In this document: piece after piece, positions 1-49,409 of the stretch
Numbering within the stretch: position 1 is the first letter of the stretch
Layout: each line of letters opens with the position of its first letter
Source: Syntrophus aciditrophicus
GTDB taxonomy: Bacteria > Desulfobacterota > Syntrophia > Syntrophales > UBA5619
Reading direction: 5' to 3'
DNA: 50,194 nucleotides
NCBI GenBank assembly: GCA_020726025.1
Contig: DYTH01000007.1
Span: 1 to 50,194, forward strand
The notes under the pieces: model-generated
Told to the model about the DNA's origin: nothing
Seen by the model: the letters and a program-made list of their open reading frames with translations, nothing else
Databases searched by the model: none
Position numbers and translations under genes: made by a program

Positions 1-41
1 AATGACAAAAGGGGACAAAATCGACTTTTGACGAGACCATC
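1..41 (-). mobile_element. Right end of a MITE copy (copy A), cut by the window edge
   Basis: The bases read into the conserved right terminal repeat GACTTTTGACGAG-NN-CATC, ending at position 41 and preceded by the AATGACAAAAGGGG block seen inside the other copies. The 6 bp that follow (AAACTT, 42-47) match the AAGCTT-like target duplications of other copies. The left half lies outside the window, so the duplication cannot be checked. Confidence 0.8.
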
Positions 42-95
42 AAACTTCGTTTTCCGTGTCAAGCCTGGAATGACAAAAGGGGGTAAAACCGCGTT
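42..95. repeat. Degenerate half of an older MITE that copy A inserted into
   Basis: AAACTTCGTTTTCCGTGTCAAG at 42-63 corresponds to half of the 21-bp unit followed by the MITE interior, as in the copy at 37567-37719. After about position 75 the sequence drifts and the terminal repeat is no longer recognisable. This is the same nested arrangement that is intact at 8304-8595. Confidence 0.55.
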
Positions 96-7903: not shown

Positions 7904-8245
7904 ATGACCGCCACCCACAACATTTTCTCCGACGTACCGGCTGAAATCAGAGGGGAATTCTTCCAGGACATCCTGCGGAGCGACCATGTCAGAATTGAGA
8001 GAATCGTCTCGCATGGAGAGAAAGCGAAGCTTAATGTTCACAAATCGCCGGACGGATTCTGGTACGATCAACAGGAAAATGAATGGGTTCTGCTGGTTGC
8101 GGGGACAGCGGAACTCTCTTTCGCAGACGGCCGCCGGGTTGCCCTTCTTCCCGGCGATCACCTGCTTATCCCGGCACACACACGGCACCGCGTGGAAAAA
8201 ACCGACCCGGAGCAAGACACCATCTGGCTGGCCGTCCATTTTTGA
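7904..8245 (+). CDS. Small cupin-domain protein with a 7-residue in-frame insertion
   Basis: This is a 113-residue single-domain cupin: GFWYDQQENEWVLLVAGTAELSF, then LLPGDHLLIPAHTRHRVEKT, and the terminal TIWLAVHF. The family is widespread and its substrate is unknown. As I recall the family, the segment before GFWYDQ runs SHG-x-x-SPxG. Here seven extra residues, KAKLNVH (40-46), are present. They are encoded by bases 8021-8041, a perfect codon-phased copy of the 21-bp unit found elsewhere in the window. The insertion falls in the loop before the first cupin motif, so the fold is probably kept. The ribosome site is AAGGAG. The gene follows the MFS gene by 12 bp. Confidence 0.85.
   Translation: MTATHNIFSDVPAEIRGEFFQDILRSDHVRIERIVSHGEKAKLNVHKSPDGFWYDQQENEWVLLVAGTAELSFADGRRVALLPGDHLLIPAHTRHRVEKTDPEQDTIWLAVHF
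8021..8041 (+). repeat. 21-bp dispersed repeat unit inside the cupin gene
   Basis: The 21 bases begin AAAGCGAAGCTTAATG and differ only in the last base from the reverse complement of 37643-37663. They are in codon phase (codons 40-46) and appear to interrupt the normal cupin sequence. Confidence 0.85.
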
Positions 8246-8303: not shown

Positions 8304-8595
8304 GATGCTCTCGTCAAAAGTCGATTTTGCCCCCTTTTGTCATTCCGTGCTTGACGCGGAAAGCGAAGCTTGATGCTCTCGTAAAAAGTCGTCACACCGG
8401 TGAAAACCGGTGTCCAGTGTTTTTGTAACGCGTTGAAATCTCTGGATTCCGGTTTTCACCGGAATGACGATTCCTGGACATTTTTGACTTTTGACGAGCT
8501 CATCAAGCTTAATGTTCATAATCCAGTGAATTTAGGTGCTTCTGGATTCCGGCTTTCGCCGGAATGACGGTTTTTGGACTTTTTACGAGAGCATC
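8304..8595 (+). mobile_element. MITE copy B (outer element, interrupted by an inner MITE)
   Basis: The left terminus GATGCTCTCGTCAAAAGTC starts at 8304 and the right terminus ends CATC at 8595. Removing the inner element and one 6-bp duplication leaves 153 bp, which equals the 132-bp standard MITE plus one 21-bp unit, exactly like copy F at 37567-37719. The flanking hexamers AAGGAT/AAAAAT are only a partial duplication. The right end abuts the HAD gene start, supplying its 5' untranslated sequence. Confidence 0.88.
8372..8504 (-). mobile_element. Inner MITE nested in copy B
   Basis: The element is 133 bp, with GATGCTCTCGTAAAAAGTC at the left and GACTTTTGACGAGCTCATC at the right. It is flanked by a perfect 6-bp duplication AAGCTT (8366-8371 and 8505-8510) that lies inside the 21-bp unit carried by the outer element. 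Its core combines a CACACCGG-type hairpin and a GGATTCCGG-type hairpin. Confidence 0.9.
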
Positions 8596-10544: not shown

Positions 10545-11147
10545 CATGGCTCGGAAAAGTTGGTCGCCGGAAAGCGCCCGGCGAAAGCCGGGGGCCCCAA
10601 CGGGATGAAAAGTATGGATTATGAACATGAAGCTTCGGTTTCTTGTTTTTTTATGCGGAAGTTGAGGGCTAAGTCACTATAGCCGAGGGCGAAACCCGGG
10701 GAAGCTAATGTTTCCACGGATCGTCCTGATGATGGTTCGTTCTGTTTTCTCTGAACGTTAAAAATCCGAGCACCCTGATTTTTTTTGCGGCGCCAGATTC
10801 TGGCATTCAGAACTGCATGATATAATTAAGCGTTTCACGCGAGTTTGAAAATTTGCCTCTTCCGTAAATGACCGGCGGTCAGAAAAAACAGGGGCATGGT
10901 TCGGGACAGTTCCACGCGGTGAGGCGTCTTTGTCTGTCCCGGTGCGCGCCGACCTTTGCACGCAATTGCCGCGCAATCACAGCCCCATCAAAAAATGACG
11001 GACGACAACCAGGATGCAGGCAGCCCCTGTAATCTGCATGCATTTTTGCGATGCGGCTTATGAAAATGGCGGCAGGTTTCTCTTGCTATTTTGAACGGAA
11101 TATGGCGACGAATGAGCCATCGAAAATCACAGGGCGCAGGGGTAAAA
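10545..11147. other. Gene-free stretch with a GC hairpin and a dispersed repeat
   Basis: No convincing ORF is seen. A strong tetraloop hairpin GCCCGGC-GAAA-GCCGGGGGC lies at about 10587-10605, enclosed by TTGG/CCAA pairing, soon after the rfbA stop. A second G-rich motif lies near 10686-10700. A dispersed repeat occupies 10621-10680. The remaining sequence, including a GACAGTTCC...GTCTGTCCC region near 10908-10940, shows nothing I can assign. Confidence 0.5.
10621..10680 (+). repeat. ~60-bp dispersed repeat carrying the 21-bp unit
   Basis: This region matches 20962-21021 over about 60 bp. Both begin with the 21-bp unit (ACATGAAGCTTCG core), run into TTTCTTGTTTTTTTATGC and end in a TAAGTC-CTA block, with about ten differences. 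Both copies are intergenic and in the same orientation. Confidence 0.75.
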
Positions 11148-13765: not shown

Positions 13766-13896
13766 GATGAACTCGTCAAAAGTCGATTTTGCCCCTTTTG
13801 TCATTCCGTGCTTGACACGGAATCCAGTGAATTTAGGTGCTTATGGATTCCGGCTTTCGCCGGAATGACGGTTTTTGGACTTTTGACGAGAGCATC
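13766..13896 (+). mobile_element. MITE copy C (standard form)
   Basis: This 131-bp element has left end GATGAACTCGTCAAAAGTC and right end GACTTTTGACGAGAGCATC, flanked by a perfect palindromic duplication AATATT (13760-13765 and 13897-13902). The interior holds two GGATTCC-type hairpins. It lies between the divergent thioesterase and rfbC genes. Confidence 0.95.
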
Positions 13897-20881: not shown

Positions 20882-20961
20882 ATTTCTCCAAGTTGTCGTT
20901 TGAAAATTTGTTGTTTAAAGCTTTTAATTTGCTTGCATTTTTTGCCATGTCCGATAATTTT

Positions 20962-21021
20962 ATAAACATGAAGCTTCGCTTTCTTGTTTTTTTATGCAGG
21001 AGTTGGGGAGTAAGTCGCTAA
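20962..21021 (+). repeat. ~60-bp dispersed repeat carrying the 21-bp unit (second copy)
   Basis: Partner of 10621-10680. It begins with the 21-bp unit (AAACATGAAGCTTCGCTTT) and continues through a T7 run into AGTTGGGGAGTAAGTCGCTA. Confidence 0.75.
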
Positions 21022-32044: not shown

Positions 32045-32257
32045 AAGCTTCGCTTTGTGACCATTAAACTTGATGCTCTCGTCAAAAGTACATTTTCCCC
32101 TCCCCTTGCGGGAGGGGATTAAGGGGAGGGGAAAACGACATCCCGTAATACAGTCACTTATCGCCCCCACCCTGACCCTCCCCCGTGAAGGGGGAGGGAA
32201 TTTTAGACTTTTGACGAGTTCATCAAGCTTCGCTTTGTGACCATTAAGCTTCGCTTT
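32045..32257 (-). repeat. Tandem 21-bp units at the 3' end of dusB, split by a MITE
   Basis: Unit 1 is 32045-32065. The next unit is interrupted at AAACTT (32066-32071) by the MITE and resumes as 32225-32245. A partial third unit is 32246-32257. Each unit is AAGCTTCGCTTT plus a 9-nt variable tail (GTGACCATT here, ATGAACATT-like elsewhere). Before the MITE arrived this was a 2.6-unit tandem of period 21. The dusB stop codon (32244-32246) lies in it. Confidence 0.8.
32072..32224. mobile_element. MITE copy H with an unrelated core
   Basis: The termini GATGCTCTCGTCAAAAGTA and GACTTTTGACGAGTTCATC are those of the family, but the 115-bp interior is entirely different. It consists of CCCTCCCCTTGCGGGAGGGG- and CCCTCCCCCGTGAAGGGGGAGGG-type hairpins. 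Flanks AAACTT and AAGCTT are a near-perfect 6-bp duplication. This suggests that the ends, not the core, define the mobile unit. Confidence 0.85.
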
Positions 32258-37566: not shown

Positions 37567-37719
37567 GATGAACTCGTCAAAAGTACAAAAACCGTCATTC
37601 CGGCGAAAGCCGGAATCCAGAAGCACCTAAATTCACTGGATTATGAACATTAAGCTTCGCTTTCCGTGTCAAGCACGGAATGACAAAAAGGGGCAAAATC
37701 GACTTTTGACGAGTTCATC
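37567..37719 (-). mobile_element. MITE copy F between purH and purE, carrying the 21-bp unit
   Basis: This 153-bp element equals 132 bp plus a 21-bp insert. Perfect CATTTT duplications flank it (37561-37566 and 37720-37725). Orientation is opposite to copy C. The hairpin site GGATT/CCGTG is split by the 21-bp unit at 37643-37663. Removing the element restores a compact purH-purE junction. Confidence 0.95.
37643..37663 (-). repeat. 21-bp unit inserted inside MITE copy F
   Basis: Relative to copies C and E, exactly 21 extra bases (containing ACATTAAGCTTCGCTTT) lie between GGATT and CCGTG. They are the reverse complement of the cupin insertion at 8021-8041 except for one end base. Confidence 0.88.
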
Positions 37720-43489: not shown

Positions 43490-43590
43490 ACATCCAGATC
43501 ATCCCGGTTTCAAGCAGCATCTCCATCCTTTTGTATAAAATATGATTTTTCCGCACAATATCAATACATTGCACAATCATGTTTTCGCAG

Positions 43591-43770
43591 GGGCAATTGT
43601 GGACATTAAGCTTGAGGAACTCGTCAAAAGTCGATTTTGCCCCTTTTTGTCATTCCGTGCTTGACACGGAATCCAGAGATTTCAACGTGTTACAAAAACA
43701 CTGGACACCGGTTTTCACCGGTGTGACGACTTTTTACGAGAACATCAAGCTTCGCTTTCACGAATTGCCC
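43591..43770. repeat. Hairpin with the 21-bp unit in its loop, interrupted by MITE copy G
   Basis: GGGCAATTGTG (43591-43601) is complementary to CAC-G-AATTGCCC (43759-43770). Without the MITE and its duplication, these arms enclose one copy of the 21-bp unit (left part 43603-43613, right part to 43758). This shows an uninterrupted-locus context for the unit: the loop of a hairpin. Confidence 0.65.
43614..43746 (+). mobile_element. MITE copy G
   Basis: This 133-bp element is flanked by perfect AAGCTT duplications (43608-43613 and 43747-43752), which lie inside a 21-bp unit. Left end GAGGAACTCGTCAAAAGTC (one change), right end CTTTTTACGAGAACATC. The core pairs one GGATTCC-type half with one CACCGG-type half, a chimera of the two core types. 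Confidence 0.93.
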
Positions 43771-43865
43771 TGCTCGGCGACCCCGTATCTGAAATTTTCA
43801 TCATGCGTTGTGCTCGCACCGGGCATGGCGGTTTGTAAGGGTAAAATGCGGATATCTACAGGTGT

Positions 43866-49323: not shown

Positions 49324-49409
49324 GGAGGGATGGCCGAGTGGTCGATGGCGGCGGTCTTGAAAACCGTTGACCGAAAGGTTCGCGGGTTCGAATCCTGCTC
49401 CCTCCGCCA
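49324..49409 (+). tRNA. tRNA-Ser (anticodon TGA)
   Basis: The acceptor stem GGAGGGA pairs with TCCCTCC (ending 49405), the discriminator is G, and the CCA end is encoded (49407-49409). The anticodon loop CTTGAAA puts TGA at 49358-49360. A long variable arm (TTGACCGAAAGGTTCG region) is typical of serine tRNA, and the T-arm has GGGTTCGAATCC. Confidence 0.97.

Follow-up and report, generated by a model that had tools for sequence, protein, structure and literature searches.

At positions 8304-8595 one MITE lies inside another, exactly within a 21-bp unit carried by the outer element, which raises the question of how the two came to be stacked and whether the unit acts as a landing site. The window (the whole stretch of 50,194 nucleotides analysed here) is contig C54 of a 2.16-Mb genome, G000, which comprises 149 contigs and is 92% complete; G001 denotes a congener. 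The nest described by the first-pass annotation is real, with an inner element of 133 bp inserted at the AAGCTT of the outer element's unit and a copy of AAGCTT on either side of it. As had been claimed, subtracting the inner MITE and one AAGCTT restores an outer element of 153 bp with the plan of another copy in the window, copy F; the two are identical at 145 of 153 positions. The parts of the nest and the two copies used for comparison are as follows.

8304..8371, + strand: outer MITE, left part together with the unit's hairpin half (145/153 match to copy F after removal of the inner element)
8360..8371, + strand: interrupted 21-bp unit, hairpin half AAAGCGAAGCTT
8366..8371, + strand: AAGCTT target duplication, left copy
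8372..8504, + strand: inner MITE of 133 bp with a type C/B interior, tips (8372, 8486) matching GATGNNCTCGTMAAAAGTM and flanked by AAGCTT on both sides
8505..8595, + strand: outer MITE, right part, preceded by the second AAGCTT
8505..8510, + strand: AAGCTT target duplication, right copy
8511..8519, + strand: interrupted 21-bp unit, tail half AATGTTCAT
13766..13896, + strand: copy B, the same MITE type without the unit, with empty site GG^AATCC and duplication AATATT
37567..37719, - strand: copy F, a unit-carrying MITE with no insertion in its unit (37643-37663)

The outer element's own target duplication is imperfect (AAGGAT / AAAAAT). Compared with copy B, the restored outer element and copy F each carry exactly 21 additional bp, inserted at GG^AATCC. 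The proposed order of events, in which a MITE received the unit and the unit then received a second MITE, is upheld with one step added: the unit-carrying MITE was amplified before the second MITE arrived. Among the matches listed, the unit lies inside 15 of 83 MITE copies, and in those of the A/B type it follows CACGG, as it does in copy F and the outer element. This shared position indicates that the unit entered a MITE, that the MITE multiplied, and that later MITEs struck the unit. A length of 153 bp was rejected as a mark of the unit, since 17 of the 32 long copies among the matches listed have the type D interior of copy H, described below, and lack it.

We consider it highly probable that the locus is a stack of mobile DNAs, in which IS1182-like non-autonomous MITEs and a separate 21-bp insertion are combined by a transposase that prefers the AAGCTT in the unit. 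The MITEs (~131-154 bp, with a 6-bp duplication) would be non-autonomous relatives of a 1.92-kb IS1182-like DDE transposon, and the unit would enter mostly at G^AA, whether in genes (as whole codons), palindromes or MITEs. One unit would have inserted into a MITE that was then amplified, and the transposase would favour AAGCTT within the unit far above its general taste for AANNTT, a preference that would have brought the second MITE to this position.

For the MITE family we read at least 83 two-ended copies shorter than 160 bp, in the window and in L-numbered stretches of DNA taken around listed copies; three longer spans, each containing a further element, were left out. The copies are short and non-coding, with inverted tips, and among the matches listed nearly all measure 131-154 bp (the exception being one of 85) and share tips GATGNNCTCGTCAAAAGTC despite three different interiors. 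Most two-ended copies have an exact 6-bp target duplication, including 24 exact duplications outside units among the matches listed, and these hexamers are A/T-rich, starting with A and ending with T (AANNTT-like). A MITE tip immediately past one hexamer was found in 20 copies, 18 of them within a unit (again among the matches listed), and the duplication made by an earlier MITE is re-used by later ones. As a side observation, MITE pairs spaced by exactly one 6-bp duplication occur on contigs C6, C31, C38, C42, C48, C62, C67, C103, C114 and C120.

MITE tips number 229 in G000 versus 10 in G001. The congener also holds a 1924-bp element (L267:2004-3927, or G001:C21:43503-45426) with the same tips as the MITEs and the duplication ATTGTT, which encodes a DDE transposase of 591 aa whose closest family is IS1182. 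The profiles PF13751, PF01609 and PF05598 all score over their cut-offs in this protein, so that the DDE domains are present. The element resembles the IS1182 family in several respects: its DDE transposase contains DUF772, its tips are inverted, and it has short direct repeats and MITE derivatives, of which those of ISMac2 are an example (PMC3852290). However, its score against the IS1182 profile NF033551 is 162.5 bits, under the curated cut-off of 270 bits, and we call it IS1182-like. A transposase of this type was not found in G000 (92% complete) or in four other genomes searched. The 1924-bp transposon is probably of the autonomous partner type of the MITEs, which would be moved by a transposase of the congener's type.

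The unit, with consensus AAAGCGNAGCTTNATGTTCAY, has 7 matches in the window against 0.00 expected and 160 in the genome against 0 for a reversed control. One unit in the window lies before the nest.

8021..8041, + strand: 21-bp unit within a cupin gene (7904-8245), keeping its reading frame and adding 7 residues

These 7 residues correspond to exactly one unit and are missing from the cupins of all six relatives that have the gene (a seventh genome gave no match). In riboflavin synthase (L196:3583-4299, on contig C72 of G000) 14 extra residues correspond to two units and are missing in 7/7 relatives; PDB homologues of both proteins likewise lack the additional residues, and the DNA of the G001 riboflavin synthase gene has the empty site CGCTGTG^AAAAAGAC. 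Further in-frame units occur at the N terminus of RpiB and in a protein that we read as SWIM-type. The gains in the cupin and riboflavin synthase genes are of whole codons, in different reading frames. Rickettsia palindromic elements, repeats of roughly 100-150 bp that are inserted in frame in protein genes, share this habit with the 21-bp unit and are much longer.

The 21-mer is partly palindromic and tandemly repeated, as might be expected if it were a conserved motif bound by a protein and formed on the spot without any insertion, but such a motif would not account for genes having gained exactly 21 bp or 42 bp in comparison with relatives, as whole codons in different frames, nor for the difference of exactly 21 bp between copies B and F, and we regard it as extremely improbable. 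Equally hard to credit is dispersal of the unit solely as a passenger inside MITEs: the 15 unit-carrying copies are what it would predict, but most of the 59 non-redundant unit contexts among the matches listed are outside MITEs, G001 has 116 unit copies versus only 10 MITE tips, and the units gained by genes have no adjoining MITE. Judged by sequence comparison, the 21-mer is a dispersed insertion in its own right and not a passive site. At the junctions of the 59 contexts (among the matches listed) G is found at -1 in 46, A at +1 in 50, A at +2 in 56 and the full GAA in 39; because the unit itself starts with AA, an insertion of 21 bp without duplication is indistinguishable from one of 19 bp with duplication of AA.

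In G000 the unit has 80 exact copies, and in G001 it has 18 exact copies and 116 with at most one mismatch. An exact 18-base match occurs in 10 of 155 genomes of the order, a few copies are found in a second genus (G149, G151-G153), and named matches to the 21-mer come for the most part from Syntrophaceae and other deltaproteobacterial MAGs. Unrelated phyla were also matched by the 18-base pattern (for instance Vibrio, Bacillota and Mariniradius); these matches were disregarded, their number being close to that given by chance (an estimate of about 7). Two tandem units were also seen in a Verrucomicrobia-binned contig of a SulCav MAG labelled Chthoniobacter (L090), which is possibly mis-binned. 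In G001, a multicopy repeat with CAATTGCAAAACT... ends has two inverted units at matching places (L279-L281, L283, L293), and in the window (10619-10679 and 20960-21020) and in L133 the unit is joined to a common A/T-rich stretch of ~40 bp, a further unit-carrying repeat type.

The claim that the unit is a preferred landing pad is borne out by a genome-wide count. Among the matches listed, contact with a half-unit is seen in 47 of the 83 MITE copies, a strong enrichment; 26 have it on both sides, 18 have a MITE tip on the other side, and 3 are one-sided and weak (L111, L125, L141). The motif of the 24 exact duplications outside units leads one to expect hits on units in 0.45% of copies, and in 3% when insertion is taken to be tolerated in just 15% of the DNA, against the 57% observed among the matches listed. 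Because the stretches had been chosen near units as well, we recounted in contigs C1-C115, which have complete tip listings and form the least biased subset, and found that 41 of 69 copies touch a half-unit when at least one exact tip is required and 30 of 50 when both tips are exact. In controls of the half-unit test, 59 of 50,000 random positions pass, as do 21 of the 186 AANNTT sites in the window, occupied ones included. The preference also exceeds that expected from the frequency of AAGCTT, since exact AAGCTT duplications lie in units in 28 of 28 cases among the matches listed versus 7 of the 16 AAGCTT sites in the window after removal of MITEs (p = 9e-11), the other 9 of 16 being outside units.

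The same counts bear on whether survival alone explains the pattern, with units residing in harmless DNA and MITEs purged from everywhere else. Most units do appear to be intergenic or in repeats, and the MITE target is A/T-rich. However, even if all units were in the open 15% of the DNA the expectation is the 3% given above and not 57%, no exact AAGCTT duplication (0/28 among the matches listed) is outside a unit, and the base after the hexamer matters, so that this explanation is unlikely. That base is A in 25 of 33 hit units but, outside MITEs, in just 44 of the 110 units that were not hit (p = 3e-4), and MITEs of the A/B type have their B end at the hairpin half in 17 of 23 cases (p = 0.035), both among the matches listed. 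Together, the two biases suggest that recognition is wider than the palindromic hexamer, and the transposase would owe its preference to recognizing about AAGCTTAATG of the unit directly.

A MITE and a unit could also have spread as one block, making their association a product of co-amplification. Some outer contexts do recur, with 8 + 5 copies in GGGGCAATT palindromes among the matches listed. Yet the MITE-hit units are spread over 24 distinct outer contexts and three MITE interiors among the matches listed, a single context can hold MITEs of varied interiors and lengths (132, 133 and 153 bp), and many units are empty: 108 of 148 arrays among the matches listed are intact, a total in which two or three probable chance 4-mismatch matches (e.g. 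L263:1103, L138:1009) were kept. The excess of units over MITE tips in G001 also argues against joint spread, and co-amplification is largely refuted and, in our assessment, very unlikely. Only 1 of 7 elements read in G001 is in a unit (L273), and the preference is accordingly shown for one genome. In MAG USDV_maxbin.029, of another genus, similar MITE tips adjoin 21-bp units in L073 (one) and L080 (two), and the landing preference may therefore extend past this genome.

Three further places in the window had been connected with the unit.

1..95, - strand: second nest, cut by the contig start, with a MITE (1-41) in a unit variant (hexamer 42-47, half-unit 42-53) in a MITE (54 to ~95)
32072..32224, - strand: copy H, a MITE whose interior is of another type (D), in an array of three units
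43614..43746, + strand: copy G, a MITE in a unit within a GGGCAATT...AATTGCCC palindrome, duplication AAGCTT

The first-pass annotation had placed copies G and H at the same AAGCTT in other units. This holds for copy G, which has AAGCTT on both sides; copy H does lie in a unit array, but the hexamers on its two sides (AAACTT / AAGCTT) show a single-base difference. At 42-53, where a fourth case had been suspected, lies the hairpin half of a unit variant, AAAACGAAGTTT, adjoining the interior of another MITE that runs from 54 to ~95, so that the window opens with another nest, truncated and of the same plan as that at 8304-8595. Among the matches listed there are three clear nests (at 8372 and 1-95 in the window, and in L145), and most unit hits are outside MITEs. 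As far as we can see, nesting within a MITE is not specially favoured, three nests being in our judgement about the number expected if hits fall over all units. The GGGGCAATTCATGAATTGCCCC palindrome family, found at 43590-43775 of the window and in L119, L134, L144, L155, L164, L221 and others, frequently has the unit inserted at CATG^AATT and is frequently hit by MITEs.

In the core of the unit, AAGC-GNA-GCTT, positions 2-5 can pair with 9-12 around a GNA loop. Among 64 distinct units the pair 4-10 is G-C in 45, A-T in 11, A-C in 4, C-G in 1, G-T in 1 and other in 2; it covaries (Fisher p = 3.6e-8 for the four main types) and has the top mutual information of 210 column pairs, with 12 double-change cells versus 3.0 in shuffles. 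The covariation is confined to this one pair and may reflect few events. Strong folding is not supported, as standard DNA energies give only -1.7 kcal/mol (z -1.2). All four bases (A, G, C and T) are found at the N of the loop, and we know of no mobile element built on a d(GCGNAGC) mini-hairpin. That synthetic DNA hairpin is very stable, as described in PMC4686876, and the unit core GC-GNA-GC resembles it. The unit would move as a small hairpin-forming DNA. Tentatively, and as a reading that we hold less likely than not, the 21-mer may rank with the smallest mobile DNAs known. It would consist of a GNA mini-hairpin and a 9-nt tail, insert copies of itself at G^AA, possibly as nuclease-resistant ssDNA, add exactly 7 codons to genes, and provide a DDE transposon with its preferred place to land.

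No enzyme that moves the unit was found, as all five Y1 loci over the family cut-off are without a real neighbouring unit (one has a 4-mismatch chance match). A Y1/RAYT transposase was rejected as the mover for lack of adjacency at these loci, and the unit is not classed as a REP/REPIN sequence. A weak partial Y1 match in L293, below the family cut-off, has two units beside it. Many REP-type sites looked like hairpin loops, but loop targeting as a general rule was rejected, with stems of at least 5 in 5 of 59 contexts among the matches listed (and in 2 of the 48 that are singletons), compared with 182 of 2000 GAA sites used as controls.

Insertion sequences that target REP sequences are established (Tobes and Pareja 2006, PMC1525189). 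There, as here, a short dispersed repeat is hit by a transposase at a fixed position, and ISRm22, with 6-bp repeats at the palindrome axis, is a further likeness; unlike the cases described there, the present one involves a MITE family, the 21-bp repeat is itself an insertion, and many MITE copies are at other sites. Our literature searches found no 21-bp repeat in Syntrophus, no MITEs in Syntrophaceae and no MITE hot spots in REP sequences, nor the present combination with gene-level evidence of 21-mer insertion. Landing of insertion sequences in small repeats is already known, and nested targeting of a mobile 21-mer looks new.

The small dispersed repeats of cyanobacteria, reportedly described by Elhai and colleagues in 2008, are said to be ~21-27 nt long, to be mobile by an unknown mechanism, and to insert in other repeats. 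The unit resembles such repeats in length (~21-27 nt), dispersal and presence or absence at homologous sites; it differs in belonging to another phylum, in offering a DDE MITE a place to land and in lying in frame in housekeeping genes. The cyanobacterial work is cited in PMC3116915. The locus yields a datable series of nested insertions and a transposase whose strongly favoured target can itself move, in what would be a second clade besides cyanobacteria where DNA of ~20 bp clearly spreads, here with gene-level empty sites in relatives. Because the insertion site is defined as G^AA, and the unit with its variants is defined as well, the movement of so small a DNA becomes testable.

Two minor observations concern the window as a whole. 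Its sole Rfam match is a tRNA-Ser (TGA) at 49324-49409. Like many other contig ends in G000, its start (1-47) terminates 20-50 bp inside a MITE tip, where the assembly breaks.
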